The notes beneath the pieces were generated by a model. The model was not told the DNA's origin, did no database searches, and saw only the letters and a program-made list of their open reading frames with translations. Shown piece after piece: positions 1,174 through 45,408 of a DNA stretch of 64,000 bases. The number at the start of each line of letters is the position of its first letter. Position 1 is the stretch's first letter. Source of the DNA: Citrifermentans bemidjiense Bem (GTDB lineage Bacteria > Desulfobacterota > Desulfuromonadia > Geobacterales > Geobacteraceae); the NCBI RefSeq assembly GCF_000020725.1, contig NC_011146.1, forward strand, positions 3,285,501-3,349,500, written 5' to 3'. The position numbers were made by a program, and so were the translations under genes.

Positions 1174-1851
1174 ATGGGCGAGATGACGTGGCAGGCTGAA
1201 CGATTCGCTGCAGCATTGCGGGAAAAGCTGCAGGAGACACTGGGCCGGGAACCGAGTCTCCTGTCGTTAAATGAGGCATTGACCGCATGCAGCGCTGCCG
1301 CCGAGAAGGTCTGCGCCGGGCGCCCCATGGCCTGTGCTCCCGGTTGTCCTTCCTGCTGCGTTCTCAACGTGGCGGTACTGCTTCCGGAGGCCATACTGAT
1401 AGCTATGCGGCTGCGCAAAACGCTCCCGCCGTCGGAGCTTAGCCATCTGCAGCGCACACTGTCTGCCCACCGTTCGTGGACGCGCTGGATGGACGACGAG
1501 GAAAGAATCATCAAGCGCGCCGTCTGCCCCTTTCTCGACAGCTACGGCAGTTGCTGCATCCACGAGGTGCGCCCGCTGGCCTGCCGGGGCGCAGCCTCAC
1601 TGGATGCTGATTGCTGCCGCAAGGCCTTCTCCCCCATCATCACTGACGACCCCCGCCTGGTCCCCGCCGACCTGCTGAGGCAGGCAGCCTACGACGAGGC
1701 CTTTTCCACCCTGGGCAAGGCCCTCAAATCCAGTGGTCTCGACGACCGCAGCATCGAATTGGGTACAGGTGTGCTGGCGTTCCTGGAAGAGCCGGAGTAC
1801 CTGGAGCTCTTCAGCGGCCGCGGACGGCTCCCCGACTCCCTCTGGCGCTGA
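1174..1851 (+). CDS. YkgJ-family cysteine cluster protein
   Basis: A 225-residue cytoplasmic protein of the YkgJ/FliB-like zinc- or iron-chelating family (PF03692). The visible signature is a set of cysteines: CAPGCPSCC near residue 50, then CPF, CC, C-RG and CC further on, in the order expected of the family, including the R-P-L-A-C-R-G motif. Members are thought to bind a metal or Fe-S cluster, but the reaction is not established. Start chosen at ATG 1174, preceded by a GGGGTGGG stretch; a GTG at 1165 is an alternative. It lies alone between a terminator and a convergent cupin gene, whose stop codon it abuts (no spacer). Confidence 0.75.
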   Translation: MGEMTWQAERFAAALREKLQETLGREPSLLSLNEALTACSAAAEKVCAGRPMACAPGCPSCCVLNVAVLLPEAILIAMRLRKTLPPSELSHLQRTLSAHRSWTRWMDDEERIIKRAVCPFLDSYGSCCIHEVRPLACRGAASLDADCCRKAFSPIITDDPRLVPADLLRQAAYDEAFSTLGKALKSSGLDDRSIELGTGVLAFLEEPEYLELFSGRGRLPDSLWR

Positions 1852-2325
1852 CTACTGCCCTTTTTTCCCGCCTTGATCCACCAGTTTCAGGCTCCACGGT
1901 CCATTGGTAGCGATCTGCAGGACCGTTTCCTGGTCCACCCAAGCGTTGTGAACCGTCCTGGGCGCAAGGGCGAAATAGCTTCCGGCCGGAAGCACCGTCG
2001 GATTATCCGGCGTCTTCCCCATGGCGAGTTTGACAGTCCCGGAAATCACCGTTACCCGCTCCACCCCCTCGTGGAAATGGGGGGCTATGGTGGTACCGGC
2101 GGGGAGTTTGAGACGCACAGCGAAGTACCCGCTCTTCTTCGGGTCACCGTCCAGGACCGCCATCTGCGAGGTCGGAAGCTCTGCCGGGCCGCTCTTCCAT
2201 TCCAACTGGTCCGGGGTAAGAATCACCTGCTTGGCCGGCTGAACAGTCTGCTTTTTCGGTGCTGCCGTCACGACCGACGCGAACGACACACATGCCACTG
2301 ACAGTACCAAGATCCTCTTGATCAT
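1852..2325 (-). CDS. Exported cupin-domain protein
   Basis: A 157-residue protein with a Sec signal peptide (MIKRILVLSVACVSFASVVTAA) followed by a single small beta-barrel cupin domain. The cupin metal site is visible as H-F-H-E-G (HFHEGVERVTVISG) with the second motif around PAGSYFALAPRTVHNAW, the second histidine being in TVHN. Small exported cupins of this kind are often annotated as DUF4437-like or generic cupin 2; no substrate can be assigned. It is transcribed toward the YkgJ-family gene with which it shares its end. Confidence 0.8.
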   Translation of the reverse strand: MIKRILVLSVACVSFASVVTAAPKKQTVQPAKQVILTPDQLEWKSGPAELPTSQMAVLDGDPKKSGYFAVRLKLPAGTTIAPHFHEGVERVTVISGTVKLAMGKTPDNPTVLPAGSYFALAPRTVHNAWVDQETVLQIATNGPWSLKLVDQGGKKGQ

Positions 2326-2522
2326 AACGCCTCCACTGTTAGTTTATTTTAAGACGCCGACAACTATAGGGATAATTTTGCAGTAGTCAACCTGACGGTC
2401 GCACTTCGATCTTGGGACCTGGGAAGTTTCTCAAGAATCCATCTGTCTTTGAAGGGGGCGCAGCAGAGAAGGCGGGGTAGAAAGTCGAGGATCGATGGGT
2501 GGGGTGGCTCGAAAAGAGTTCG

Positions 2523-2560
2523 GCTGCGCCGGTACCATGCAGCGATGGTACAGGCGCAGC
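2523..2560 (-). terminator. Large inverted repeat, probable terminator of the MCP gene
   Basis: Arms GCTGCGCC plus GGTACCAT pair with ATGGTAC plus GGCGCAGC around a GCAGCG loop, just after the stop codon of the minus-strand chemoreceptor. The T-run TATTTTTT lies on the plus-strand side, so minus-strand termination would depend on the weaker ACTCTTTTC tract. Confidence 0.5.
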
Positions 2561-2570
2561 TGATTATTTT

Positions 2571-3749
2571 TTAGAGGTGGAACTGTCGCACCAGGCGCTC
2601 CAGTTGATCGGCCTGAGAGGAAAGCGTTGCCGCAGCGGTGACGGCGCCGGCGGTTTCATGGGCGTTGCGCTGGATGACCTCGGTCACCTGCTGGACGTTG
2701 CGAGAGATCTCCCCGCTGGTGGCTGTCTGCTGCTCCGCAGCCGTCACGATCTGGTTGATCTGCATGGTGACCTCGGAGATCTTTCCGGTGATCTCCTCGA
2801 GGGCCTCCCCGGATTTCCTCGAGTACCCCGTCCCTTTCTCCACCTCGGTGACGCTGCTTTCCATCGCCGTTACGGCGTGTCTGGTCTCGGTCTGGATCGC
2901 CTTGATCATCTCTCCGATCTCGCGCGTGGCGCGCGTGGTGCGCTCCGCAAGGGCGCGCACTTCGTCGGCCACCACCGCAAATCCGCGCCCCTGCTCCCCT
3001 GCCCTTGCAGCTTCGATGGCGGCATTGAGCGCCAGCAGGTTGGTCTGGTCCGCGATGTCCTCGATGGTCCCTACGATTTCTCCGATCTGATCCGAACGTG
3101 CCCCCAATCCTTCGACGGTTCCGGCGGCATCCTTTACCCGGGCAGCTATCACTTCCATCCCCTCGAGGGTCTGATGCACGACGTTGGCTCCGGACTGCGC
3201 GGTGTCCGTCGCCTGGCTGGAGTTGGTAGCGGCCCTCATGCAGTTTTGCGCTATGTCTCCCGAGGTTGCAGCCATCTCCTCGCTCGCCACGGCAACGGCG
3301 TTGGTCTGGGAGGCGACGTCTTCGGTTCCGGCAGCGATCTGCGTGGCGCTGGAATGTACTTGCCGGGAAGCCTTGGTGAGGTCTTCGGAGGTATGGGATA
3401 TCTGGGAGACTATTTCCCGCAAGGTGTCTTGCAGCGAACCTATGGAGCGGATGATGGTGCTGATTTCGTTGTTGCGTTTCGGGGCGATTTTCTGGGTCAG
3501 ATCTCCCTCGGTCATCTTGGCCAAATATCCCTGGATCCGGGCTAGTGCGTCGTTGACCGTCCAGTAAAGGAGCGCGCTGAAGATGATGCCGAGTATCACG
3601 AAAACTGTGGTCGAGATGATGGCGATTGAAGCGGAGAAGGATCTCCCCACTATGACTGCTGCAATGATGCAGAAACTGTAGCAGGCGGAGAGAAAGAGTA
3701 TCCGTGTCTTGATTTTCAGTCGCAGATAAACATCTAAGAAAATATTCAT
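2571..3749 (-). CDS. Methyl-accepting chemotaxis protein without periplasmic sensor domain
   Basis: A 392-residue chemoreceptor. Two hydrophobic helices lie close together near residues 16-35 and 42-64 with almost no periplasmic loop, followed by a HAMP domain (about 65-115) and a full methylation/signalling domain with the conserved tip motif [20 protein letters not shown] and the [13 protein letters not shown] helix. Ligand sensing must therefore occur in or near the membrane or through a partner. Start chosen at 3749 (MNIFLD); an upstream ATG at 3776 in the same frame would place the start only ~15 bases from the predicted transcription start. A consensus sigma-28 promoter precedes it, so it is likely a member of the flagellar/chemotaxis regulon. 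Confidence 0.9.
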
Positions 3750-27513: not shown

Positions 27514-28648
27514 ATGGCAGAGAAAAAGACAGAAGATATCCTAAAAGATGTAAAACCGATTGAGATCTCTTACAGCGAGAAACTGAAGGAGGATCCGGCG
27601 TTCGTGTTGGCACTGATCGAAGACCCTGTGAAGGCGTTTCGCGCATATGGCTACAACGGTGACGAGAAGATGATGAGCATAAATGGGGGGGGGGAGCCCT
27701 TTCTGCGGCAGGATATCCTGACTTTGCTCAGGTACGCCGCCGCGAAAGGGATCCTTCTCTCCTTCTCCACCAACGCCTCTCTGGTCACCGAGGAGGTCGC
27801 CTCTGCTCTTTATGAGCTCAGGAATTCCCTGTTCTACATCCAGATGAGTCTTTACGGCGAGAGCAGGGAGACCTATGAGGGAGTCACCGGTTCCCGCAAC
27901 AATATGGAACTGGCACTGAAAGGGCTGGCAAATCTGGTCGAAAGGGGACTGGATGTGGCTGTGCTGACGGTGGCGACTGCCGAGAATGTGGACAGGATTC
28001 CCGAGTATGGTGGCGCGCGAGTATGGAATAAAGGAATACAGGTTGGCTCCCGAGGTGTCTTTAGGGAGATCGGCTGACAAGCCGAATATCCGGAAGGCGG
28101 ATGAGGCGGGTGTATGGAGCAAGCTGGTTGCCTCGCTTGCCAGGATCAAGGAGAACATGGTCGAGGGGGACCCTCCGCTCTACTTGGATGCGAGGCCGCT
28201 GTTCGGTGAATACCTCTACAAGGTAACCGGTTTCGGAAATTTCTACGAAAATTGCACGGCCGCCACCACCATGATCTATCTCGACCCATCTGGGAATGTA
28301 TTGCCATGCCCCTTCCTGAAGCAGTTACCTCCGGAACTGGGAAAGCTGTACAGCCACATCAAGTCAAACAACATCATGAAGAGTAGCTTTCAGAACATCT
28401 GGCATTCCGACGCATTTGAGACATTCCGGTCCTATTACGACCCTGGCAAGAACCTTTTCAAGATCAACAAGGAGTGCAAATTTTTCAAAAAGGGAACCTG
28501 CATCCCTTGCGCCGTGACCCCGTGCAATTGTGAGGCCTCCATCAGGGCGCTGAAGTCGGAGCTTGCCCCCACCCCCAAGACCGCGAATAGTTGTGAATCG
28601 GACTTGAAGTTTGCCCCTGCATCGGCGTCTAACCCTGGCCCACCTTAA
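27514..28648 (+). pseudogene. Broken radical SAM/SPASM peptide maturase fused to a RiPP-leader-like N-terminus
   Basis: The first frame (27514-28006) starts with ~55 residues resembling a RiPP leader (LKEDPAFVLALIEDPVKAFRAYGYN) and then enters a radical SAM domain at INGGGEPFLRQDIL, the second motif of that fold. The preceding CX3CX2C iron-sulfur segment, normally ~45 residues earlier, is absent. An extra T near 28006 shifts the frame; the continuation (28007-28648) reads MVAREYGIKEYRLAPEV onward and holds a SPASM-like region, C-x12-G-x4-C (starting NCTAATT) and CKFFKKGTCIPCAVTPCNC. A strong AAGGAGG site precedes the start. As it stands it cannot bind the SAM cluster, so it looks like a deletion fusion of precursor and maturase genes that has since frameshifted. 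A ten-G run at 27685-27694 marks the fusion point. Confidence 0.72.
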
Positions 28649-30210: not shown

Positions 30211-31206
30211 GCCTGGGGGTCAAGTCTTGTTTATTGCTCATTTTGTGGTTCAATAGGCTTAATAGCAGCTAATGTCACAACATGTGCGGAGCAATTGCGA
30301 TGGCGCGACCCTTACGCATTGAATTCCCTGGTGCAGTCTACCACCTCACCTCCCGCGGCAACGAACAAAAGAATGTCTTCCGCGACGACAAGGATCGCAC
30401 GATCTTTCTTGATATTCTGGCAAGATCCTGCAACCTCTTCAACTGGCTCTGTCATGCATACTGCCTCATGGGGAACCACTACCACCTTATCGTTGAGACG
30501 GTGGATGACACTTTAAGCAGGGGCATGCGGCATCTAAACGGGGTCTATACTCAGAAATTCAACTGGAATCATCACAGTGTTGGTCATGTTTTCCAAGGAA
30601 GGTACAAGGCGATCCTAATCGAGAAAGAGAGCCATCTCTTAGAAGCCTGCAGATATGTCGTGTTGAATCCAGTAAGGGCAAAGCTCGCTGCAGACCCTGC
30701 TCAGTGGCGATGGAGTAGCTACAAAGCGACAAGTGGTCTTGAAAAACCAGCAGCTTGCCTTACAACAGCTTGGATCCTTCAACAGTTTGACCAAAAGCCG
30801 ACCAGCGCCAACAAAAAATATAGGGAGTTCGTTCAAGACGGTATAAACGCAAGGTCGATATGGGAGGACCTCAGGTCGCAGATACTGCTGGGCGATGAGG
30901 ACTTTGTTGAGCAGTTTAAAGATATAGCAAAGGGAGTAGAGGCATTGACAGAAATCCCGCGCGACCAGCGATTCTTACAGCGCCCAGATCTTCAGGAACT
31001 CTTTTCTGGAATTGATAAAGACAACAAAAGGCTGCGAAAAAACGCAGTAATAGAGGCAATAGAAGTGCATGGCTATGCACAGAAGGACGTTGCAGACCAC
31101 CTGGGGTTGCACTATTCCACGATCAACCGAATCTTAGGCAATAAACGAAACCAGGACAGCTGATCGACACTCATCATGAGCAAGAATAAAGACCTGACCC
31201 CCAGGC
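30211..31206 (+). mobile_element. REP-associated tyrosine transposase (RAYT) element with inverted ends
   Basis: An element of about 996 bases bounded by 30-base imperfect inverted repeats: left end GCCTGGGGGTCAAGTCTTG... at 30211-30240 and right end ...GACCTGACCCCCAGGC at 31177-31206. It encodes one Y1 transposase. Solo copies of the right end occur downstream at 31698-31727, 32582-32611 and 32612-32638. Confidence 0.8.
30300..31163 (+). CDS. Y1 (HUH) transposase, RAYT type, with C-terminal helix-turn-helix
   Basis: A 287-residue single-strand transposase. The metal-binding HUH motif is in MGNHYHLIVE, the catalytic tyrosine is in the ACRYVVLNPVRAKLA helix, and the N-terminus ARPLRIEFPGAVYHLTSRGNE is standard. 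A C-terminal extension (VIEAIEVHGYAQKDVADHLGLHYSTINRIL) is a DnaA-like helix-turn-helix found in one RAYT subfamily. Start taken at 30300; an upstream ATG at 30282 is possible. The reading frame is intact, so the enzyme may be active on the REP-like ends nearby. Confidence 0.93.
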   Translation: MARPLRIEFPGAVYHLTSRGNEQKNVFRDDKDRTIFLDILARSCNLFNWLCHAYCLMGNHYHLIVETVDDTLSRGMRHLNGVYTQKFNWNHHSVGHVFQGRYKAILIEKESHLLEACRYVVLNPVRAKLAADPAQWRWSSYKATSGLEKPAACLTTAWILQQFDQKPTSANKKYREFVQDGINARSIWEDLRSQILLGDEDFVEQFKDIAKGVEALTEIPRDQRFLQRPDLQELFSGIDKDNKRLRKNAVIEAIEVHGYAQKDVADHLGLHYSTINRILGNKRNQDS

Positions 31207-31210
31207 TGCT

Positions 31211-31690
31211 GATATAACTAGCGGCGATAAGGACCCCAACAACCCCGACCTGCAAACCTTCAACCCGCTGTTCCCGAAAGGCGCCTATTTCAGCGAGAAC
31301 GGGCTGATCGGTCCCGCCAACTTCATCGATGTCAATCCCTCAGTAGTATTCCACTTCCTAAAAAACCTTACCGTCACTGCCAACTGGGACTTCTTCTGGC
31401 GAGAGAGCACGCGTGACGGCATCTATAACAACGCCGTGGTCCTAGTTCGTTCGGGGAAAAGCAGCTCTGCCCGATACGTCGGGAGCGAGCCGCAGGTACA
31501 ATGTGAATGGAACGTGCAACGGCATGTCAGCCTAGTAGCCATTTACGCCCACTTCCTTGCAGGACCCTTCCTGCGGGAGTCGGGGCCTGGCGATGACGTC
31601 GATTACTTTACGACCTGGGTCACTTACAAGTTTTGAGCAGCGGGCAGGCAATAAACGATACCAGGGCAGCTGATCGACTCTTATCTCGAC
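31211..31690 (+). pseudogene. Duplicated 3-prime fragment of an alginate-export porin gene plus RAYT right-end segment
   Basis: Bases 31211-31690 are nearly identical (about seven differences) to 32097-32576. The coding part (to the stop near 31636) encodes the last ~140 residues of an alginate-export-family porin (KGAYFSENGLIGPANFIDVN to DVDYFTTWVTYKF). It starts directly at a RAYT right end and runs into a partial copy of the RAYT 3-prime region. It has no start codon or promoter. Confidence 0.85.
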
Positions 31691-31697
31691 AGGTACA

Positions 31698-31727
31698 TGA
31701 GCAAGAATAAAGACCGGACCCCCAGGC
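31698..31727. repeat. Solo RAYT right end (REP-like)
   Basis: TGAGCAAGAATAAAGACC... to ...CCCCCAGGC, matching the right end of the RAYT element at 31177-31206. It is preceded (from about 31650) by a remnant of the transposase 3-prime coding end (GGCAATAAACGATACCAGG). Confidence 0.85.
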
Positions 31728-32522
31728 TGCCGGATAGCGACCCGCCCGGCGCAGACCGACGAACACACATTCGACGACGGCACCGATCACCGTCGGGCCC
31801 TTTGGGGTGTCTACTCCGTCTTTCCCTTGCCGGCGGCTACCAAAACTAAGGCCGATCTATATTACCTCGGTTACTACAACGGCAACGCCGGGTTTGATCA
31901 GGGGCAAGCGAAGGAAACCCGCCACTCGGTGGGGGCCAGGCTTTGGCGGGCCGAGAAGCCGCTCGACTACAACTTCGAATTCCTTTACCAGTGGGGAAGT
32001 TTCGGCGACGGCGAGATCAGTGCCTGGACCGCAGCTTCTGATACCGGATACTCAGCTGCAGATCTCCCCTTTTCTCCTCGATTTGGGTTGAAAGCGGATA
32101 TAACTAGCGGCGATAAGGACCCCAACAACCCCGACCTGCAAACCTTCAACCCGCTGTTCCCGAAAGGCGCCTATTTCAGCGAGAACGGGCTGATCGGTCC
32201 CGCCAACTTCATCGATGTCAATCCCTCAGTAGTATTCCACTTCCTAAAAAACCTTACCGTCACTGCCAACTGGGACTTCTTCTGGCGAGAGAGCACGCGT
32301 GACGGCACCTATAACAACGCCGTGGTTCTAGTTCGTTCGGGGAAAAGCAGCTCTGCCCGATACGTAGGGAGCGAGCCGCAGGTACAATGTGAATGGAACG
32401 TGCAACGGCATGTCAGCCTAGTAGCCATTTACGCCCACTTCCTTGCAGGACCCTTCCTGCGGGAGTCGGGGCCTGGCGACGACGTCGATTACTTTACGAC
32501 CTGGGTCACTTACAAGTTTTGA
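31728..32522 (+). pseudogene. 5-prime truncated alginate-export family outer-membrane porin gene
   Basis: The open frame begins within a RAYT right end and encodes about 265 residues of an alginate-export domain (PF13372): FDDGTDHRRALWGVY, DLYYLGYYNGNAGFDQG, RHSVGARLWRAEKPLDYNFEFLYQWG, LKADITSGD, DWDFFWRESTRDGTY and the C-terminal strand ending in YKF, the usual terminal aromatic of outer-membrane beta-barrels. Family members are typically over 400 residues with a signal peptide, so roughly the first 200 residues are missing. The only early initiator is a TTG at 31827. Almost certainly non-functional. Confidence 0.82.
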
Positions 32523-32581
32523 GCAGAGGGCAGGCAATAAACGAAACCAGGGCAGCTGATCGACTCTCATCTCGACGTATA

Positions 32582-32638
32582 TGAGCAAGAATAAAGACTT
32601 GCCCCCCAGGCTCAAGAATAAAGACTTGACCCCCAGGC
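32582..32638. repeat. Two tandem RAYT right ends (REP-like)
   Basis: A complete copy at 32582-32611 is followed immediately by a second, slightly shorter copy at 32612-32638, both ending in CCCCCAGGC. A transposase 3-prime remnant lies just upstream (32528-32575). Confidence 0.85.
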
Positions 32639-32644
32639 TCCCGG

Positions 32645-32906
32645 TCAAAAGCCCGATCAGCGTCATCAGCCCCAAGTCGCCGCGGGAAACGTGGAGCATC
32701 TCTTTACCCTGCCTGGCCCAGCAGATCGAGAACAACACAGGGAGGGAAAATACGAGCCGGAAGAATCCGATCGACAGGGGATTGGTCGAAGCCAGGTGAT
32801 AGATGGTTTTGGTGGAAATGCCGACAGTGCCCCACAGGACTGCGGCAAGCATAATCAGAAGTAGCCCGCGGCGCGACTCGGCGCGGGCAGCGTTTATGGA
32901 CTGCAT
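32645..32906 (-). pseudogene. 5-prime fragment of an EamA transporter gene
   Basis: Encodes the first ~87 residues (MQSINAARAESRRGLLLIML to GLMTLIGL) of the transporter whose complete copy is at 38849-39826, then runs into RAYT end repeats. It keeps the start codon and upstream sequence but lacks eight of ten membrane helices. Confidence 0.88.
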
Positions 32907-33140
32907 GGGAAATCTCCTTGAAACTCAGTTGAAAGGGAACATCTGAGATCAAGGCAGTAAGGCGCAACTCTAGTGGGAACGCAGTACGCGAACTGGAGGG
33001 GGTAACCGGCCAGACTGCCTTGTTAGGCGAGAATGGCTGAGGGCGGGGGTAATATGCTGGAGAAGGGATAGTACATGCCGACGTATATAGCAACAGCCGG
33101 TGCCGGTTGTCAAAGAGATTCTCGGTCCACAGCCCCTAAC

Positions 33141-33268
33141 TGCATCGCACACGGATTTAAGGCGAAAACAAAAACGATAACTGCAGATTAACACCCTGCA
33201 AAATCTTACATCTTTAGTTGTTTCTACCTGCCGCTATCCGTTGTTTCCGTTGAATCCGTGTGCGTGCC
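33141..33268. repeat. Palindromic dispersed element, copy 1
   Basis: Outer arms GCATCGCACACGGATTTAA and TTGAATCCGTGTGCGTGCC are inverted repeats, with inner ATAACTGCAGATTAA and GCTATCCG words. Related copies lie at 40061-40189 and 55817-55935. Confidence 0.7.
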
Positions 33269-33289
33269 GTTGATCTTGCGCTACCCTGG

Positions 33290-33823: not shown

Positions 33824-34762
33824 CTAACTCTGTAGTAACGGGAGCCAGAGAAAAGGTGAAATCGCAGCGATTTTCGTAATGTCAACAATCGCGCCAAGGA
33901 GTGACCTGATTTTGTCGTCATTGCACTTCTCCTGCTTTATAGCGACGGTAATTCTTCTAAAATGATTGAATCCCTCGATGCTATGCGCCACAAGCCGTCT
34001 CTTGTCTAGATGATCTACAACAAGGGCTTTAGAAACAAAAGCGATCCCCTGTCCAGTAAGCACAGACTCTATCATGAATTTCATATCATCACATACTATC
34101 ACTCCCTTGAAATCGCTCAGTTGCAGAGAGCATTTATTCAGGTTTTCGGAAAGCATATCCCTGCAACTGCAGCCTTCGACACGGGCGATTATCCGGTTAT
34201 CAAGCAACCAGGAGAGCGGGGAGTCGTATGAAGTAAGCTCCGGAGCACTGTTACTGATAAAAACCATCTCATCGTCAGGGAGTTCAAATGTTTTGAGACC
34301 GGAGAAATCAAGATTACCGTTGTGCTCAATCGCAGTGATATCGAAAAAGCCGCCTTTCAAACCATCCAGCAGCGCTTTCGGGTGTTGAACAAGAATCTTA
34401 AGATTTGCACCTTCGGAATGAGACAGAAAAGAATTATTCATGATGTTCGACATATGATTGACAGCGAACGCGACAGTGGTGCCGATGGACAGCGTCCGAT
34501 CCCCTCCCAAATTCGCAACATCCTCAATGAGATCATCTTCGAGTTGCACAATCCGCTCAGCCTTTTTTAAAACCCGCAGGCCCATATCCGTGGGCATCAG
34601 CTCTGTTCCGGAGCGATCGATCAGGCGCCCCCCGAAATGGTCTTCGAGAAACTTGACCCGGTGGGAAACCGCCGACTGGGTCACGTTAAGAGCAGTAGCA
34701 GCTTTGGAAAAGCTCTTTTCCCGCAATACCGTAATGATTGTTCGTAGATACTCGATGTCCAT
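33824..34762 (-). CDS. LysR-family transcriptional regulator
   Basis: A 312-residue regulator: N-terminal winged helix ([47 protein letters not shown]) and a periplasmic-binding-protein-like effector domain (from about residue 90). Codon use and GC are lower than in neighbouring core genes. The C-terminal residues (FLWLPLLQS) end one base beyond an IS21 remnant, so the natural end may have been altered. It is divergent from the octahaem cytochrome gene and is the obvious candidate to control it. Confidence 0.88.
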
Positions 34763-35178
34763 AGTTTCGCTCTCTCCTGCCGTGGTTCCAAAATTTGCAA
34801 CCTTTCACCCGAAACGGCCAATGAACCTTCGTAATGGATACATGAAAATTATTGATACAGAAACCTCTCCTTTGGGTGATTTCGCACTAACCATTCAGCC
34901 GATCCGCAGCTTTGTAGATACTGTGAATTTGAAACCTCGCCCACAGAGGCCTCAAAAAGCTTTGGCATTGTAAATGTAATATTAGCTACGACAGACTTAA
35001 TCAGAAAAGTATTAATTTTGATATGAGCAAGATTCATACCCTCATATTCCAATAATTGCATACTACGTTATCAATGGCAATGACAAAACCCGCTCCATTA
35101 GGGGATGCAAAGCCACAAGCCCCGGACCCTCCAGGAGGTTCTGGGTTGCAGGTGAAACCAAAAAAGGAGGAAGGACAG
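34763..35178. other. Divergent regulatory region between LysR and octahaem cytochrome genes
   Basis: A 416-base AT-rich spacer. It must hold both promoters; no sigma-54 or riboswitch signature was recognised. A small inverted repeat CCTCCAGGAGG is at about 35127-35137, near the cytochrome leader. Confidence 0.4.
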
Positions 35179-38100
35179 ATGAAGAAACAGCAGAAGACGC
35201 TGCTAACGGCTCTGTCGGTATGTGCCTTCGCCTTTGCCGCGGCCGCAGGAGCGGACCTGGCAAAAGCGTCGACGTACCACAAGACCGATTCAGCAGGGGC
35301 AGTACCCCTCAAAGACCGGACGGGGAATCTGATACCGGTCGGCAGCACCACTCCGTACAGCCCGGAAAAAACCTGTGGTACCTGCCACGACACCAGCCTC
35401 ATAACCCAGGGGTACCATTTCCAGCAGGGGAAAGGGTTCTCAAACAGCGACATTAGAGTATCGGACACATACAATACCGCGAAGCCCTGGCTTCTTTCAG
35501 ACGGTATGTATGGAAAGTGGTGACCGCCGTCTTCGGACTCGAGCCAGTTGGCTCGGAAGAGCAATACCAGCAGCACCCAGATGGACAAGACCTCTTACTT
35601 CTTTACCGCCAACTGCGGCGCCTGCCACCCCGGTGGCGCGGCTACGCAATATGACCGCAATGGTAACCTCTACTTCAATAGAACCACCAACCTCTTCGGT
35701 TATCTCGGCGGCGTCGCGGCACTGACGGATCCGGCCGCCAAGCTGGATGGCGACTACGGATTCATCAACCCCAGCACCGGAGTGCCAGGAACGGCAGCAT
35801 GGAGCAAGACCGGCATCATGGAACCGGACTGCCTCATGTGCCACATGAACAAGTACGACACGACCACAAAGACAGTCGTCGATGCCACGAAAAACTATGT
35901 GGTATTCAACAACAACGACATGGGCGCAAGCTGGCACAAGCGTGCCGCCACAGCCCGCGGTATCTCGGTTGCGGGCGTTGCCAACTTCGATTCGGCCGCG
36001 ACTCTTGGCGCCGGATGGGGGCAGGTAACCTACGCCACCACCGTTGCTGACGGCACACCACCGATGGCAACGGCAATTACCATCAACTACGGCCTCGGCA
36101 CCACCGCCGGCACCCTTGTTGCCGACAGCGGCAATAATTATGTGATTCCGACAGGCGTCATCGGCGCTGCCGGGAACGCCAACTGCCGCGGCTGCCACAC
36201 CTCTCCCGACGGCAAGAAGTCGGGGCGCACCACCCTTGCCACCACCGACGTCCACTCGGCCCTGGCCTGCACCCGCTGTCACGCAACCCCCAATACGGGG
36301 ACAAAGGACTCCCTCGGTGTCGCGACGGGGAACACCCACCAGGTTGGCAAGGGGAACATCACCATCGGCACCATCCGCAACGACCTGGATAATACGGTGA
36401 AAAGCTGTGAAAACTGCCACCTCGATGGTGGTGACGCCGCAGCGCCGAACCCGTCCGCGGCACACCTCAACAAGGTTCCAGGTTCCCACATGAACTTCCT
36501 GAACTGTCAGGTATGCCATATCCGCTTCGTCAGTGCCGGCAGCACGACTGCACCGACGATTCCGGAGCAGGTGATCGAGATGGCTTCCAACGGCACCCAG
36601 AACATCTCGAAACTGAACGCATACCTCGGAACCGACCCCCTCGACCCCACAAAGAACCTCGTCGATCTGACCGGCCAGCCCTTTCGCTGGTACCCCGGCC
36701 TCAAGTGGTGGGGTAACAAGATCACCACCGTCAAGCCCCTCTACACCGCATGGTTCGGGGAATGGATCAGCGGAGAGGGTAGTGCAGCGGTGATCAGGCC
36801 GATTAATCTTCGGCTTGTTCGCAAGGGAATGACGGACCAGTACGCCCAGAATGTGGCCCGACTCGCGTCGCTGCCGCTGACTGCGGGGACGCAGGTTGCC
36901 AACGGGGCCCCTATCCTGCATAGGAAGGAGGAGATAAAGGCGGCTCTTGTGAGAATGAGCACTGTCACTGACACTGCCGGCACCTCCAACGACAAAATCG
37001 CCACCAGACCCGTCCTGGTCCGCGCCGACAAAGTCTATTTCCTGAACGCCGCAGGCGAAGTCGAGTATTTCGAGAGCACCGTTGCAGAAAGCCATGACTT
37101 CGCAGTGAATCACAACGTCGTTGCGAAGCGCGACGCGGCTAACCCAGTCGTCAAACCTGGTCCGTACGGTTCCGGCGGTTGTACGGACTGCCACGGGAAC
37201 AGCTCTCCATTCTTCCATGGAATGCAGCTCGCGGAGCCGGCCCAGTACGATTATCTGGACGAAGCAGGCACCGTTGCCAATACGAATGCCGGCAAGCCGA
37301 TCTATAAGCCGCACTACAAGACCATGGGCTATACGGAGTTCAGGGCCAAGCAGCTGACAGCAGACATCGTCCCGGCGATCACCCGGGTTATTGGGCAAGG
37401 GAGCGTGGCGGTCAGCGAGGGAGCCAACAGCTGCACCACCGCCGGCGGCAATGAATGCGCCATCGGTGCTACACCCGCCTCCGATGTTACCTTTACCGCG
37501 ACTTCGGCACCTGGACAGGCGTTTGTGAAATGGTCAGGGTGTACACCGTCACAATCGGATCCCCTTTCCTGCACGGCCAATGTCGGCACACCGGCATCTG
37601 GCGCAGAAAACCGCGGCATCCTGGTAACGGCGACATTCACTGAGCCAGCAGCCCCCGCGCCGCCGCCGGCAGTCACAACTTTTACCCTTTCCGCTTCATC
37701 GGTCACTGTCGGCGGCACAAAGGGCGGCACACTTGGAGCAACATCAATTGACGTTGCATCAGGAAGTGACTATTTCATCAGTGTCCGCCCTGAAGCCGGC
37801 TACACAGTAACGGCTGCCACCGTTGACGGTGCGGATGTACTCGGCGTCGTACGCGCAGACGGCGGCTATCCGTTCACAAACATAACAGCAGCCCACACTT
37901 TTGTGGTGACTTTCACTGCAGACGAGGCATACACCGTTACTGTCGGGGCAACTAGCAACGGCACCGTGACTCCAGGCACCGAGTCGATAGTAAAAGGGAA
38001 AAGTGCCACCTTCTACTTCACCCCTGCAGCCGGCTATGCTATCCGCGACGTCAAGGTTGACGGCACATCTGTTGGGACTCCCAGCTTTTTCACCTTCGCA

Positions 38101-38634
38101 GATGTGGCGACAAACCACAGCCTTGATGTTACTTTCGGCAATGCCGTCACCTTGGCCACCACCGTCACCAATGGCAGCGTCAAGATCAACGGTACGACGG
38201 CAACCGCCAGTACTTCGGTTGCCTCTGGCTCCAAGCCTCAGATTGACGTGGTGCCAAACGCCCACTACAAACTGTACCGACTCCAGGTCGGTGGTATCAA
38301 TGTCACTGGCAGCGCAGTTAAGAATGCCGATGGCTCATATACCTATGCACCGGCCAATGCCATGCTTGCAAACACCACAATCAGTGCCACGTGCTCTGCA
38401 ATCTACTGGGCGCTTAACGGCACTGCGGGTGCAAACGGAAGGATAGGCGTCAGCTCTACCCAGATCATGGATGGCAATAGTTACTTTATAAACATAACGC
38501 CAGACAGCGGTTACAAGATCGAAACCGTGACTGACAATGGAACGGATGTAACGACGCAGGTTAGTAATGGCGGGTATAATGTCGCCAACATTACAACAAA
38601 CCATGCAGTAGCGGTAACTTTCGTAGCGAAATAA
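35179..38634 (+). CDS. Octahaem c-type cytochrome with C-terminal beta-repeat domains; in-frame UGA at codon 115 (possible selenocysteine)
   Basis: Read through one internal UGA (35521-35523), this frame gives 1,151 residues: signal peptide (MKKQQKTLLTALSVCAFAFA), eight CX2CH haem motifs (CGTCH at residue 66, then CGACH, CLMCH, CRGCH, CTRCH, CENCH, CQVCH, CTDCH at 668), and from about residue 735 a chain of InlB-like bacterial repeats (GYTVTAATVDGADV, GYAIRDVKVDGTSV, GYKIETVTDNGTDV). An AAAAGGAGG site sets the start. The UGA falls in MYGKW-UGA-PPSSDSSQLARK; in related Geobacter cytochromes I recall a cysteine there. One haem motif lies before and seven after the UGA, and no other stop or frameshift occurs. 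If not recoded, the product is a 114-residue monohaem fragment. Confidence 0.8.
35521..35559 (+). promoter_or_regulatory. In-frame UGA followed by SECIS-like hairpin
   Basis: After UGA (35521-35523), CGAGCC (35540-35545) pairs with GGCTCG (35550-35555) around the loop AGTT, with a lower helix CTTC (35531-35534) / GAAG (35556-35559) and a 5-prime bulge GGACT. The loop begins 22 bases after the UGA and has G in its second position, both within the rules described for bacterial SECIS elements. Function is inference. Confidence 0.45.
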
Positions 38635-38848: not shown

Positions 38849-39826
38849 CTATCTCAAGACCTCCGCTCTGACCGTCGCCCTCCCCGCCTTTCGCATGGGT
38901 GCCGTGGCACCCAGATACAACAGCAGCAGTGATCCCCCCAGTAAGGCGATCCCCAGAAACCCCACGGGGGTGAAACGCTCACCGAAGAGGAACCAGGCCA
39001 GCATAGTCGCCACCATAGGCTCTAGAAGGGTGCTGATGCTGGCTGCCGTTGCCGAAGTGGAACGCATTCCTTTGAAGAAGAGAACGTAGGCGAGAGCTGT
39101 CGGTATCGTGCCTAGGTAGACGAGCAACACCCAGGCTAGAGGGGTGTAGGTCATTACCATGTCTTTTGCGAAACCGAAGAGCACGGCGGCACCCACGCTG
39201 AAGCTGATGGCGAGGGACTGAAAAGGGTCGCGGTGCGCGGCCAGTTTCTGTGAGATAAGGGTGACCAGCCCATAGCTGAAGGCGGATACCATGGCCAGCG
39301 CAATGCCACCGGTGTCCGCTCCGGTTAGCCTAAGGGGACAGGCACCTTGCGGAGCCAGTCCCCTGTCCTGGAACAGAACCAGGACAGCCGTGCCGGATAG
39401 AGCACCTACAAGGGCTACCAGCGTCGACCTGCTAGGTCTCTTCCTGGTGAATGCGACGGTGATGACGGCGACCATGACCGGCGCCGTGCAAAGAGTAACC
39501 ACTGTCGCGACCGCTACCCCGGTACGCGCAACGGCGCCGAAGTAGCAGACCTGGTACAGCGCGGTCATAAGCCCGATCAGCGTCATCAGCCCCAGGTCGC
39601 CGCGGGAAACGTGGAGCATCTCTTTACCCTGCCTGGCCCAGCAGATCGAGAACAACACAGGGAGGGAAAATACGAGCCGGAAGAATCCGATCGACAGGGG
39701 ATTGGTCGAGGCCAGGTGATAAATGGTTTTGGTGGAAATGCCGACAGTGCCCCACAGGACTGCGGCAAGCATAATCAGAAGTAGCCCGCGGCGCGACTCG
39801 GCCCGGGCAGCGTTTATGGACTGCAT
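38849..39826 (-). CDS. EamA-family (drug/metabolite transporter) permease
   Basis: A 325-residue inner-membrane protein with ten predicted helices in two EamA repeats. The first repeat begins GLLLIMLAAVLWGTVGISTKTIY and ends near VALVGALSGTAVLVLF; the second runs from GIALAMVSAFSYGLVTLISQK to LGIALLGGSLLLLYL and contains the conserved LEPMVATMLAWFLFGE segment. Substrates of the family include amino acids and other small metabolites; none can be assigned. Its 5-prime quarter and upstream region are duplicated at 32645-33286. Confidence 0.9.
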   Translation of the reverse strand: MQSINAARAESRRGLLLIMLAAVLWGTVGISTKTIYHLASTNPLSIGFFRLVFSLPVLFSICWARQGKEMLHVSRGDLGLMTLIGLMTALYQVCYFGAVARTGVAVATVVTLCTAPVMVAVITVAFTRKRPSRSTLVALVGALSGTAVLVLFQDRGLAPQGACPLRLTGADTGGIALAMVSAFSYGLVTLISQKLAAHRDPFQSLAISFSVGAAVLFGFAKDMVMTYTPLAWVLLVYLGTIPTALAYVLFFKGMRSTSATAASISTLLEPMVATMLAWFLFGERFTPVGFLGIALLGGSLLLLYLGATAPMRKAGRATVRAEVLR

Positions 39827-40207
39827 GGGAAATCTCCTTGAAACTCAGTTGAAAGGGAACATCTGAGATCAAGGCAGTAAGGCGCAACTCTAGTGGGAAC
39901 GCAGTACGCGAACTGGAGGGGGTAACCGGCCAGACTGCCTTGTTAGGCGAGAATGGCTGAGGGCGGGGGTAATATGCTGGAGAAGGGATAGTACATGCCG
40001 ACGTATATAGCAACAGCCGGTGCCGGTTGTCAAAGAGATTCTCGGTCCACAGCCATTAACTGCATCGCACACGGATTAAGGCGGAAACAAAAGCGATAAC
40101 TGCAGATTAAGACCCTGCAAAATCTTACATGTTTAGTTGTATTTCTACCTGCCGTTATCCGTTGTTTCCGTTGAATCCGTGTGCGTGCCGTTGATCTTGC
40201 GCTACCC
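39565..40207. repeat. 640-base direct repeat, copy 2 (matches 32645-33286)
   Basis: Covers the first part of the EamA gene and ~380 bases upstream. Differences from copy 1 are scattered single bases and a few one-base indels. Confidence 0.9.
40061..40189. repeat. Palindromic dispersed element, copy 2
   Basis: GCATCGCACACGGATTAAG and TTGAATCCGTGTGCGTGCC are inverted arms of an element also seen at 33141-33268 and, in more regular form, at 55817-55935. Confidence 0.7.
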
Positions 40208-41523: not shown

Positions 41524-44500
41524 CTAGTGGCACCCGAAGCAGGTCGACTTGAAGGCCCCCTGAACGTTGAGCGTGCCGTTTCTGTGCTGCGTCGGGTTGG
41601 TGATCGTCGTCCCATGGCCGTTCACGCTGCTCACGTCGGGGTGGCACAACTGGCACTGGTTCAGGCTCGAGGTCGGACCCTGGTTGCCGTGGGTCCCGCC
41701 GTGCCATACCCTGCCGTCCGCAGGCGGATTGCCGTGGCAGGCCGCACATTGCTGACCGGTCGCGTTCCAGGCCGGGGTCCGCTGCGCACCACCGTAGTTC
41801 ACCGTGGTCAAACCGTAGTCATCGCTTCCCGAGTAGTAGCTGAAGCTGCCGGCCTTCACAGCGTGGCAGGATACGTTCGAGCAGCTCTTCCCGGAATCGT
41901 ACAGCGGCACAGAACCCGCAGTGAAGCTGTACTGGGTATCGACGGCAACAGTCACGTTCGACTGGTGGTCCTTGATGGGGAGCACCATGAGGTGGCTGGC
42001 CGCCCCGCCGCTGTGGCACGGCGTGCAGTTGTTCCACCCCTCCGAAGCCTTGGCCGTCTTCGCCACGTGCGTCAGGTGCGCTCCGCCGCCGCCCGAGTAG
42101 GACTCGAAGCGTGCCCCGGACCAGTTGTTCATAGTGCCGAAGCTAAGACCGGCGCGCTTGGGCAGTGGCGGATAGCCGTGGCAGGCGTCGCAGGTGCCAA
42201 AGGGTTTGAAGGCACCTCCGGCAGCGTTATGCCGATGGCAGTTCAGGCAGCCGGTGGTCGGGTGGCCGGTCTCCGGAACCCCATTGCGGAAGTGGGCGGT
42301 CACGGTGTGGCAAACCTGGCAAAGCCCGAGGTTGGTCCCCAGGTCGACCAGCCCCGTGGTGCTGTTGGTAAAGGTGATGGCGACGCCATTGATCATGGAT
42401 CTGATCATGGAACGGTTGGCGCTGCCGTGGGTGTCGTGGCAGGCGACGCACCCCATGGTCTGGCCGCTCCCTTTGGCGGTGAAGTGGCTACTCATGTTGA
42501 GGAATGCCGGGCGAACCAGAGCCGCGTCGTTGTGGCAGGAGGCACACAGGGCATTTCCGGAAATGGACAGGCGGGTGTAGGAACCGAGCGACCCGGAGAT
42601 GTGCCGGCTGTTTTGATCGTGGCAGTCGGTACACCTGCTGCTTGCGGCGTAGCGGCCATGACCGGTGCTGTCGAAGTTCGCCTGGTACGGTGCGGCTACC
42701 CCGTTCGGCAGTACCGACGGCTGCGCCGCGTGGCAGGAGGTGCAGGGCAACCGGCTGCCGCTCCAGGAGGGGAGGCCGCCCGGATGGCAGCCGACGCAGG
42801 CGGAACCCGCGCCGTTGATGAGATCCACCGAGCCGTTTAAGTGGGTGGCAGGATCGAAGCTGTGGCAGTTCTGGCAGACAGTCACCCCGTTACCGAAGTA
42901 GTTCCCCGGGCCATAGGCGAGGGTTACGTGGGCGCTGTGCCCACCGGTGGCCATCGGCTTCGCGCTGTCCGCGCTGCCGCCGTGGCAGGTGGTGCAGCTG
43001 TCTTTCACCTGGTAGCTGGCGAAGCTGTCCGCCATGGCCTGGCTGATGGCACCCGAGGCGACGAGATTGGGGATCGCCAGGGTTGCTACCGAGTTGTCCA
43101 GCTGGGCGTTGTCGAGGTAATCGAGGGAGTCGAGCAGCAGTTGCTGCGCATATCTCGGGTTGTGGGCGTAGGCCCCTGGCTCGCTGGCCAGGAGCACGTA
43201 GTTGAAGGCGGCCCCCATGGTGTTGGCCCCGTTCTCTCCGGAGCCCCAGTTGGTGGTGCTGAAACCGGCAGTCGGGGAGGTCGTACCGAAGCCTTTGGCG
43301 GCGAGCTGCGCCTTGAGGATCTCCAGCCCGTTCAGGAGGGCGGCGCGCTCAGCGGCAAGCCCCGCCTCGCTAAGGGAGCTACCGTGGCAGCCGGCGCAGA
43401 CCGGCAGCGCCCCGGTGACGAAGGTGTGGCCGTTGCTGGCGTTTTTGTGGCAGGCGACACAGGGGCCGCTCGCGTCGCTTAGGCCGAGCCTGGTGTGGGT
43501 AGACTCGCCGCTGTAGCTGCGCCCCGGGAAGTGGTACCCACCCTTGGCGTAGCTGGTGCCGCCCACCGCCATGAAGTGCGGATCGATGAAGTTGAGGTTG
43601 CCGAAATCGGCGAAGTTATCGCGCCGGACCGCGATGCTCTGCCCGTTGTTGGTGCCGCTGTGGCAGCCAAGGCAGATGTTCGACTTGCCGAGGTTCGGGT
43701 TCTGGTAACCGGGGTCCTCGGCGTAGGGGCGCACCGGAGTGACCGAGCGCAGGATCCCGTTGCTGATGTCGCTGTGGCAGCCGACACAGCTCAGCACCTC
43801 CTTGGTCTTGTCGGCCGCGCTTCCCCAGGCTGCGGTAATCTTGGCGCTGGACCAGGCCACAAAGCCGGTTGTGGTGTGGCACTGCACGCAGCCCGCCTTG
43901 GTCTTGAAGTCCTCCCCTTTCCAGGGAGCATCAGCGACTGCGGCGTGTGCCGAGCGCGCCCACTGCTGACGCACCGCGAGATTTGAGCTGCTGTCGGCAT
44001 GGCAGTTGGAGCAGTTGGATCGCGAGGTCACGTAGGAGGCCGGGTAGCCGGCGGCGGTCATGGTGTTGAAGTGCACGGGGGTCGCCCCTGCGGCACTTCC
44101 TGCGGTACTGTGCGGGTTATGGCAGGCGATGCAGGGATTGGCGCCGATGGCAAACGGGTGGTTGGCGACGTTGCCAGTGGAGTCGCGGTGGCAGCCGTTG
44201 CAGACGCTGTCGGCGACGTCAGGCCGGTGGCCGCCCCCCGTGTGGCAGGTCGAGCAGGTCAGGCCGTTGGCATTGTGGGGCGAGCCGGAAAATGCCGTGA
44301 CGATCGAGGTCGGGTGGCAGGTGGCGCAAAAATTGGATCCGACGGTCCCGGCACTTGCGTAGGCGATCGTGAACGTGGAATTGTTCACCGTGTTGGTGTT
44401 GACCGGCGTCGGCATCGCCGAATTGGTGTGACAGGTTATGCAGTGTATCCCGGCCGTCTTGTGCGATCCGGTCGACCACAAAGAGAACGCCGTGGAAGGG

Positions 44501-45408
44501 TACACCCCCTGCGAGCCGTGGCAGCCGTTGCAATTGGTGCGCATGTAGGCGGTTGCCGAGTTGGTGACGGTGATCTGTACCGTGTCGGAGGCAAGCGTCT
44601 TGGCTCCCGCCATCTCCGCCAGTTGCAGAACGTAGGTACCCGGAACGACGGTGATGAAGGAGGGGGTCAGGGTGTTCCAGGCGCTTGTGTCGACGGTGGC
44701 GGGACCGCTCACAAAGCTCCAGGCGAGGGTGCCGCTTCCGGTGAGGGTACCGGTCAGGTTGACCACCTGGTTGGTCTGCGCTACCTGGTCCACGCCGGCA
44801 TTGACGGCGGCCTGCATGAACGTTGCTGTCACCGTTCGCGGCGCGGTGACGTTGGCGACGGTGATCTTGACGGGACCACCGTAGGGGTAGCTGACAGGAC
44901 TTCCGTAGGTATCGGCCACGGTGCCGCCGGTCACCTCCATGAGGTAGCAGTTGGTATAGGTTGGCGTTGCCGTCAGAACAGCCGAGTTGTTATAGGAGAC
45001 CAGTACGGAAGTGGCAGAGATGCTGCCGGGCCCTATGGCCGAGGCGGTTACCTGGTACTGCCTCGCGATGAAACCAGCAACCAGGGATTGCGTGGTGCCG
45101 TTTGCCTTGTTGAAGGTCGTCGCATACTGGGTGGTGTAGTTGCCGAGAGGCACCGCAGTGCCGCTCTTGGTCAGGGCGGAGATCTTGTATCCCACATTCG
45201 CCGAGACCGTCACCGGCACGTTGGCGCTGGTGGTGAAGTTGTTGTACACGACACTGCCGGCAGTGGTCTGGGTGGCATTGTTGCGTACCTTGAGCGTTCC
45301 ACCCGTGGTACTCAGCTTCGTCTGCAACTGCCATGTGGTAGCGGCCCAAGCATACAGAGCCCCCGCCGTCAGCAAGCAGACGAGAACAGATAGTACTCTC
45401 TTCAACAT
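41524..45408 (-). CDS. 27-haem c-type cytochrome with N-terminal beta domains
   Basis: A 1,294-residue exported cytochrome (signal peptide MLKRVLSVLVCLLTAGALYAWA). Residues ~25-290 are haem-free: a bacterial-repeat-like region (GYKISALTKSGTAV, SISATSVLVSYNNSAVLTA) and an Ig/PKD-like segment (NAGVDQVAQTNQVVNLTGTL). Then 26 CX2CH motifs and one CX4CH (CSNVSCH) follow from Cys293 to the very end: the last residues are CFGCH and the stop codon comes directly after this histidine. Such proteins are extracellular or periplasmic electron conduits by family knowledge; no membrane anchor is visible. It heads a two-gene transcript. Confidence 0.92.
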   Translation of the reverse strand: MLKRVLSVLVCLLTAGALYAWAATTWQLQTKLSTTGGTLKVRNNATQTTAGSVVYNNFTTSANVPVTVSANVGYKISALTKSGTAVPLGNYTTQYATTFNKANGTTQSLVAGFIARQYQVTASAIGPGSISATSVLVSYNNSAVLTATPTYTNCYLMEVTGGTVADTYGSPVSYPYGGPVKITVANVTAPRTVTATFMQAAVNAGVDQVAQTNQVVNLTGTLTGSGTLAWSFVSGPATVDTSAWNTLTPSFITVVPGTYVLQLAEMAGAKTLASDTVQITVTNSATAYMRTNCNGCHGSQGVYPSTAFSLWSTGSHKTAGIHCITCHTNSAMPTPVNTNTVNNSTFTIAYASAGTVGSNFCATCHPTSIVTAFSGSPHNANGLTCSTCHTGGGHRPDVADSVCNGCHRDSTGNVANHPFAIGANPCIACHNPHSTAGSAAGATPVHFNTMTAAGYPASYVTSRSNCSNCHADSSSNLAVRQQWARSAHAAVADAPWKGEDFKTKAGCVQCHTTTGFVAWSSAKITAAWGSAADKTKEVLSCVGCHSDISNGILRSVTPVRPYAEDPGYQNPNLGKSNICLGCHSGTNNGQSIAVRRDNFADFGNLNFIDPHFMAVGGTSYAKGGYHFPGRSYSGESTHTRLGLSDASGPCVACHKNASNGHTFVTGALPVCAGCHGSSLSEAGLAAERAALLNGLEILKAQLAAKGFGTTSPTAGFSTTNWGSGENGANTMGAAFNYVLLASEPGAYAHNPRYAQQLLLDSLDYLDNAQLDNSVATLAIPNLVASGAISQAMADSFASYQVKDSCTTCHGGSADSAKPMATGGHSAHVTLAYGPGNYFGNGVTVCQNCHSFDPATHLNGSVDLINGAGSACVGCHPGGLPSWSGSRLPCTSCHAAQPSVLPNGVAAPYQANFDSTGHGRYAASSRCTDCHDQNSRHISGSLGSYTRLSISGNALCASCHNDAALVRPAFLNMSSHFTAKGSGQTMGCVACHDTHGSANRSMIRSMINGVAITFTNSTTGLVDLGTNLGLCQVCHTVTAHFRNGVPETGHPTTGCLNCHRHNAAGGAFKPFGTCDACHGYPPLPKRAGLSFGTMNNWSGARFESYSGGGGAHLTHVAKTAKASEGWNNCTPCHSGGAASHLMVLPIKDHQSNVTVAVDTQYSFTAGSVPLYDSGKSCSNVSCHAVKAGSFSYYSGSDDYGLTTVNYGGAQRTPAWNATGQQCAACHGNPPADGRVWHGGTHGNQGPTSSLNQCQLCHPDVSSVNGHGTTITNPTQHRNGTLNVQGAFKSTCFGCH

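Follow-up and report, generated by a model that had tools for sequence, protein, structure and literature searches.

The 2026 selenoprotein catalogue counts, in its accessible text, 119 families or subfamilies (PMC13188914). In that text the multihaem cytochromes containing selenocysteine (Sec) are ExtKL and the octahaem tetrathionate reductases (OTR) of TIGR04315, the latter marked 'GenBank annotated'; a CXXCH-bearing outer-membrane barrel protein, the GSU2204 family, is catalogued as well. The gene considered here occupies positions 35179–38634 (+) of a stretch of 64,000 nucleotides (nt) from Citrifermentans bemidjiense Bem (contig NC_011146.1, 3,285,501 to 3,349,500; hereafter the window). 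Its codon 115 is TGA. The best explanation overall, with a probability of about 0.88, is that it encodes an exported octahaem Sec cytochrome of a family with the OTR fold, in which Sec and Cys exchange at one site and Sec would have a role at haem 2.

How does this protein compare with ExtKL (NF040886)? The latter is a predicted Sec pentahaem cytochrome, and the likeness is that of Geobacteraceae multihaem proteins with an in-frame UGA (accessible portions of PMC1914089, PMC5877670 and PMC6148476). On the other hand, all five haems of ExtKL lie upstream of the UGA, whereas the window protein has one before and seven after it. ExtKL is encoded at a separate locus of the same genome (G000:C1:4573173-4574444) with its own TGA, and up to E = 1 the window protein does not match NF040886. 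Neither a selenocysteine insertion sequence (SECIS) nor non-Sec homologues are reported for ExtKL in the accessible text of PMC1914089; the window family has both. No NCBIfam model reaches its cut-off on the window protein. A literature search with sparse coverage of subscription papers and preprints found no description of the family, nor do the accessible parts of PMC12013277, PMC3495685, PMC12977616, PMC9012536, PMC11976967, PMC8840924 and PMC7096707 contain one.

What is the status of the TGA? The frame has 1,151 codons, the lone TGA at codon 115 being followed by 1,036 stop-free codons, with one CxxCH site upstream and seven downstream; all of these stand where the first-pass annotation of this DNA had placed them. 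The features of the gene are as follows.

35179–38634, +: predicted selenoprotein gene, octahaem c-type cytochrome of 1,151 residues with TGA as Sec115 (frame, orthologues, and the ratio of nonsynonymous to synonymous substitution rates, dN/dS)
35164–35170, +: Shine–Dalgarno-like AAGGAGG, 8 nt 5′ of the ATG (sequence)
35179–35268, +: signal-peptide-like N-terminus, residues ~1–30 (sequence, by eye)
35374–35388, +: haem 1 site CGTCH, residues 66–70, the sole haem site preceding Sec
35521–35523, +: UGA codon 115, predicted Sec, motif GKW-U-PP (conservation, dN/dS)
35539–35556, +: bacterial SECIS-like hairpin with a stem of 7 base pairs (bp); AGUU loop at 35546–35549, 22 nt past the UGA
35614–35628, +: haem 2 site CGACH, residues 146–150, proposed catalytic haem by analogy with the OTR structure 1sp3
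36208–36219, +: D344...K347 (DGKK), aligned with D150 and K153 of 1sp3 (profile alignment)
37384–38631, +: C-terminal region, residues ~736–1151, with divergent InlB B-repeats (PF18998) in three stretches, the best at 918–986

Could the TGA be a recent nonsense mutation of a Cys or Trp codon? In one genome a lone in-frame stop is the expected look of such an event. However, orthologues that are 87% identical have the same TGA, and so do distant relatives. When 48 genomes of the family were searched in six frames, three same-genus orthologues of 87–99% identity emerged, all three with a single TGA in the corresponding codon. A search of genome contigs gave just two loci, both of close relatives: one in Citrifermentans bremense at 98% identity, the other in Geomonas limicola at 83%; viral contigs held no relatives, and plasmids matched the InlB region only. 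Against the two 87% orthologues dN/dS is 0.084–0.087 (that is, 0.08–0.09) over codons 116–735, 620 codons downstream of the TGA, and there is no further stop or frameshift. Since the TGA is kept in orthologues and the sequence beyond it is under purifying selection, a nonsense mutation is extremely improbable, and a pseudogene was rejected on the same two grounds.

The locus might instead be an operon of two proteins: a mono-haem fragment of 114 residues and another protein starting at the ATG of codon 135. Database gene calls follow such a split, all 33 close database homologues (P0002–P0034) starting just downstream of the site, and the same option appears for ExtKL in the accessible text of PMC1914089. 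But an open reading frame (ORF) beginning at codon 135 would be without an export signal. Attachment of haem to CxxCH requires export. Moreover, the 19 codons from the UGA to this ATG, which contain the hairpin, are conserved as protein (19 of 19 residues identical in the two 87% orthologues), and homologues with Cys or Ser at the site are each one continuous protein of the same layout. We consider two proteins very improbable.

Is the TGA followed by a SECIS? The hairpin CGAGCC-AGTT-GGCTCG reported in the first-pass annotation is indeed present, its loop beginning 22 nt past the TGA and having G as its second nucleotide; the outer U–G pair included, its stability is −10.5 kcal/mol. Bacterial SECIS (bSECIS) elements are defined by a loop of 3–9 nt, a stem of 4–16 bp, a G in the first two loop positions, a distance of 16–37 nt from the UGA and a minimum free energy (MFE) of at most −7.5 (PMC13188914). 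With a 4-nt loop, a 7-bp stem, G at position 2, 22 nt and −10.5 kcal/mol, the window hairpin lies within these bounds. The additional lower helix, CTTC/GAAG, occurs in the MFE structure; it is unsupported, because one side varies between orthologues (GGAAG, GAAAG, GTAAG). The fold of the 51-nt stretch is not unusual against dinucleotide shuffles (z = −0.69, 45 of 200 shuffles equally good). Against synonymous recodings of the same peptide the hairpin is rare, 1 in 2,000 being as stable or more. Since the synonymous P across UGA sites with a strict hairpin spans 0.0005 to 0.105, single genes are weak evidence; the case for the hairpin is carried by the recoding test together with the contrast with Cys codons. 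In a set of 83 distinct members from fetched loci, made up of best matches plus chosen loci with the GGRW subfamily included and not a random sample, the strict hairpin follows 49 of 57 TGA sites, none of 12 Cys sites and two of 14 sites with other residues. A smaller set (38 sites, minus false pattern matches at L061 and L016) has it after 19 of 23 distinct TGA sites and neither of two Cys sites. The other eight TGA sites, whose hairpins are too weak for the energy limit, all keep a shorter version of it: 4 or 5 pairs and a loop of AGUU or AGUUG, 16 or 22 nt from the UGA. The loop distance throughout depends on whether the linker is two residues shorter.

The hairpin overlies the conserved residues Q-L-A, and codon choice was therefore examined, using the TGA rows alone of the locus set. 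At 63 distinct TGA sites the hairpin Leu is always TTG (54 of 54) and the hairpin Val always GTG (9 of 9), against backgrounds in the UGA genes of 10.2% of Leu codons and 27.7% of Val codons. The flanking codons covary: CGC/GCG at 49 sites, AGC/GCT at eight, GGC/GCC at one and CGT/GCG at one, the last four of the 63 having CCG..GCG and a 5-nt loop. In two members, L068 (ORF 1489–3147, −) and L070 (ORF 1108–2946, +), Ser UCA replaces the UGA while a perfect 8-bp stem and the AGUU loop are kept; from its sequence this hairpin is likely to be a SECIS relic that survived the loss of the UGA.

Some UGA readthrough is possible in principle, and a near-cognate tRNA, for example that for Trp, might insert a residue other than Sec; one non-UGA member, L072, has Trp at the site. 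Yet Cys is the chief alternative at the site, the hairpin conforms to the bSECIS model (PMC13188914) and is absent at the Cys codons tested, and the Sec machinery is present. A check for selA, selB, selC and selD, proposed at the outset, found all four in the window genome above curated cut-offs: tRNA-Sec at 74.9 bits (anticodon UCA, by eye), SelB at 393, SelA at 600 and SelD at 359.5. Readthrough thus described has only a very slight chance of being correct. With the TGA shared by orthologues and distant relatives, Cys as its main alternative, a SECIS and the Sec genes, codon 115 is almost certainly decoded as Sec, much as the first-pass annotation had read it. The SelD gene of this genome itself has one in-frame TGA (L207, G000:C1:3972577-3973494).

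How widely is such a cytochrome distributed? With profile A4, which spans the Sec site, 88 of 395 genomes searched within the phylum gave a match at E ≤ 1e-20, and the 83 members divide into 57 with TGA, 12 with Cys and 14 with another residue. In distant Geobacteraceae cytochromes the TGA lies within the same motif, G(K/A/S)W-U-(P/S)PSxRQ. Related Geobacter cytochromes had been expected to have Cys here, as GxW-C-PP. This proved wrong: the Geobacteraceae sites read are TGA, or Ser in two (L062, and L016, whose GNW-S-P site is counted as a genuine family row). The expected Sec/Cys exchange was nonetheless found, Cys occurring in groups outside Geobacteraceae. Other residues are Gly in P0038, Trp in L072, and Tyr, Ser, Met, Leu or Gln elsewhere; no site was recovered from L158. 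Trp, Arg or Gly in homologues combined with an absence of UGA from all other strains had been named as speaking against Sec; Gly and Trp do occur in a few, but UGA is retained in orthologues and more remote relatives.

Of the 63 database homologues of the window protein, 29 are truncated and seven unassigned, five of these seven being truncated as well; the 27 that could be assigned have Cys (18), Tyr (4), Ser (2), Gly (2) or Asn (1). Among the 118 listed homologues of L086 there are 92 with Cys, two with Gly, 14 truncated past the site and 10 unassigned. Anaeromyxobacter homologues are known here from proteins alone, starting past the site. In 42 of the 51 complete-frame rows the haem layout is one CxxCH before and seven after the site; six more join them if CX3-4CH is permitted for haem 1, making 48. 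L054 and L055 carry five to seven haem sites before the site, L092 has 1 + 6 in a broken frame, and L091 has 1 + 12 CxxCH in an open frame. In-frame TAA codons in f13 rows running to the gene end, and TGA codons near model position 633 in G419:C147 and G382:C335, would be ordinary terminators; the G437 match shows three TGA. A quick tree of the 83 rows, built with long-branch warnings, requires at least five switches between Sec and non-Sec, three of them forced by starred branches. The window gene thus appears, from these sequences, to belong to a broad, apparently undescribed family of Sec octahaem cytochromes annotated as truncated proteins. The first-pass annotation, correct as to Sec, had seen a single cytochrome and missed this wide, OTR-fold family.

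What fold does the family adopt? The window protein has eight haem sites, and its sole significant fold match is OTR 1sp3; VIA-align listed no other fold, which leaves room for others. When the Protein Data Bank was searched by sequence with profile A4 or with the window protein, 1sp3 was unlisted up to E = 1; with P0036 it appears at E 0.41, and it becomes clear only by the fold search and the OTR profile. The profile alignment places K347 and D344 on K153 and D150 of 1sp3, K153 being, we presume, the ligand of haem 2. The likeness to OTR comprises eight haems, the fold and counterparts of D150 and K153; Sec also lies between haems 1 and 2, in a segment that does not align with that of Cys64. 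There are differences as well. At 13.6 bits against a cut-off of 375 the window protein falls short of the TIGR04315 model, as do six UGA relatives, four scoring 31–45 bits and two unlisted. From Sec to haem 2 the window protein has 31 residues, OTR 10; its haem part is ~270 residues longer and is followed by the C-terminal InlB repeats; and its Sec motif is GKW-U-PP as against NNF-U or NSF-U.

TIGR04315 itself is matched above cut-off 23 times in total, in 20 of 148 genomes. At 20 of these loci the column of Cys64, which we take to be an active-site residue of 1sp3, could be read. It is TGA in seven and Cys in 13, and a strict hairpin follows all seven TGA codons (L187, L189, L191, L192, L195, L196 and L198, with an AGGU loop at 24 nt in six) and none of the Cys codons. 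Cys64 of this known fold is thus itself a Sec/Cys exchange site. Sec115, like Cys64, sits between haems 1 and 2. By this analogy Sec115 is somewhat more probably than otherwise positioned at the active site, in the distal pocket of haem 2. Might Sec be inserted and yet serve as a haem axial ligand or as a surface redox or structural residue? A clade with Ser, Met, Leu, Gln or Trp at the site retains the haem sites, so that an octahaem protein does not depend on a chalcogen at this position, and the profile alignment fails to match Sec with Cys64. Against this, the residue exchanged in the true reductases is Cys64, presumably of the active site. We regard a non-catalytic Sec as possible, though the less likely arrangement.

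Several observations weigh against the overall reading. The match to 1sp3 is modest (Foldseek TM-scores 0.20 and 0.30; VIA root-mean-square deviation 4.9), and the structure model was built without haems. In the N-terminal profile alignment Sec115 is not placed on Cys64; as the segments cannot be aligned, Sec115 is a putative equivalent of Cys64. All 41 of 41 genomes have tRNA-Sec, those of Cys and Ser carriers included (G344 and G391 barely above the cut-off), so it does not discriminate UGA genomes. In 13 non-UGA rows the hairpin Leu is TTG in six, two relic hairpins among them. Compared with the 99% orthologue, from which there are few changes, dN/dS is 0.16 in the haem part and 0.53 in the repeats. 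One UGA member, in G032 (L027/L064), has a further stop 249 codons on. Relatedness inflates the hairpin, codon and site-state counts, the members not being independent. There are three independent Sec/non-Sec pairs on starred branches and five in all; hairpin and UGA are never opposed in them, and with so few pairs the sign test (median p 0.5) cannot reach significance.

How might the protein work? The UGA would be decoded by the canonical bacterial route, with SelB, tRNA-Sec and the SECIS 22 nt downstream in the coding sequence. The product would be exported, loaded with eight haems and perhaps displayed through its InlB-type repeats (PF18998). Haem 2, held by the invariant Lys347 as the equivalent of K153, would be the substrate-binding haem, with Sec115 in its distal pocket as Cys64 is in 1sp3 and the other haems delivering electrons to it. 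There Sec115 may help in the reduction of an oxyanion of sulfur, selenium or nitrogen, or of a chalcogen–chalcogen bond; substrate and direction are guesses, and they and the place beside haem 2 are drawn by analogy. Octahaem–cytochrome b fusions, some labelled 'formate dehydrogenase subunit gamma', contain this octahaem domain too, the site being Sec or Cys. In the UGA members L086 and L094 a C-terminal cytochrome b-type domain (TIGR01583 above cut-off) stands where the window protein has InlB repeats, which points to a quinol-linked reductase.

In three Geobacteraceae genomes (G006, G026, G036) a Sec octahaem gene has Sec-decoding genes beside it. Each has a second tRNA-Sec above cut-off (anticodon tca by ARAGORN) a few kilobases from the UGA octahaem gene, and two SelB above cut-off, one of them beside that gene (C72:142300, C19:315021 and C38:9762, respectively). 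G006 and G026 share one arrangement: tRNA-Sec comes first, then the genes for a four-haem protein and the Sec cytochrome, followed by a lipoprotein-like gene, selB and, last, a response-regulator-like gene (names by eye). The selB–tRNA-Sec stretches of these three genomes (L210, G006:C72:139001-159000; L209, G026:C19:299001-319000; L211, G036:C38) contain no selA or selD. The window genome, G030 and G033 have one SelB above cut-off each; G030 and G033 hold the same cytochrome subfamily without a linked selB, and the window's own cytochrome gene has no selB or tRNA-Sec neighbours. The cluster is a possible cassette, a Sec gene cluster that would carry part of its own decoding machinery.

Around the cytochrome gene the window contains the following.

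33824–34762, −: LysR-type regulator, divergent from the cytochrome gene and kept beside it in three orthologous genomes
32642–33286 and 39562–40207: 647-bp direct repeat, 97.7% identical, flanking the LysR–cytochrome module
38849–39826, −: EamA-type transporter gene, whole; one 647-bp copy contains part of it
31208–31728 and 32094–32612: 521-bp direct repeat, 97.3% identical, around an alginate-export porin fragment (31827–32519, PF13372)
30282–31163, +: IS200-like (Y1) transposase gene, near the repeats
41524–45408, −: multihaem cytochrome of 1,294 residues, rich in CxxCH sites, with an MtrC/MtrF-like domain
27514–28648, +: SPASM-domain protein split over two overlapping ORFs in different frames, perhaps a frameshift

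The 647-bp repeat suggests a recent duplication or insertion event.

What does this mean for the family? Anaerobic and extracellular respiration depend centrally on multihaem cytochromes. For all 33 close homologues the database protein has a false start and is without the signal peptide and the first haem, and the genes and numbers of cytochromes listed for Geobacter and its Desulfobacterota relatives need correction. Tentatively, and at slightly less than even odds, we propose that these are widespread, undescribed octahaem selenoenzymes that would hold a selenol(ate) on the substrate-facing side of a c-haem with a Lys ligand, selenium–haem catalysis then being a general strategy of anaerobic respiration. 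One Geobacteraceae branch of the family (G006, G026, G036) may travel as a cassette with its own selB and tRNA-Sec, and L068 and L070 may retain SECIS relics. A broader Sec family with Sec/Cys pairs, an in-gene SECIS and a fold whose haem active site is known makes the role of selenium at a catalytic haem testable, and the selB–tRNA-Sec–cytochrome clusters give a glimpse of how the decoding of Sec might spread alongside its client genes.

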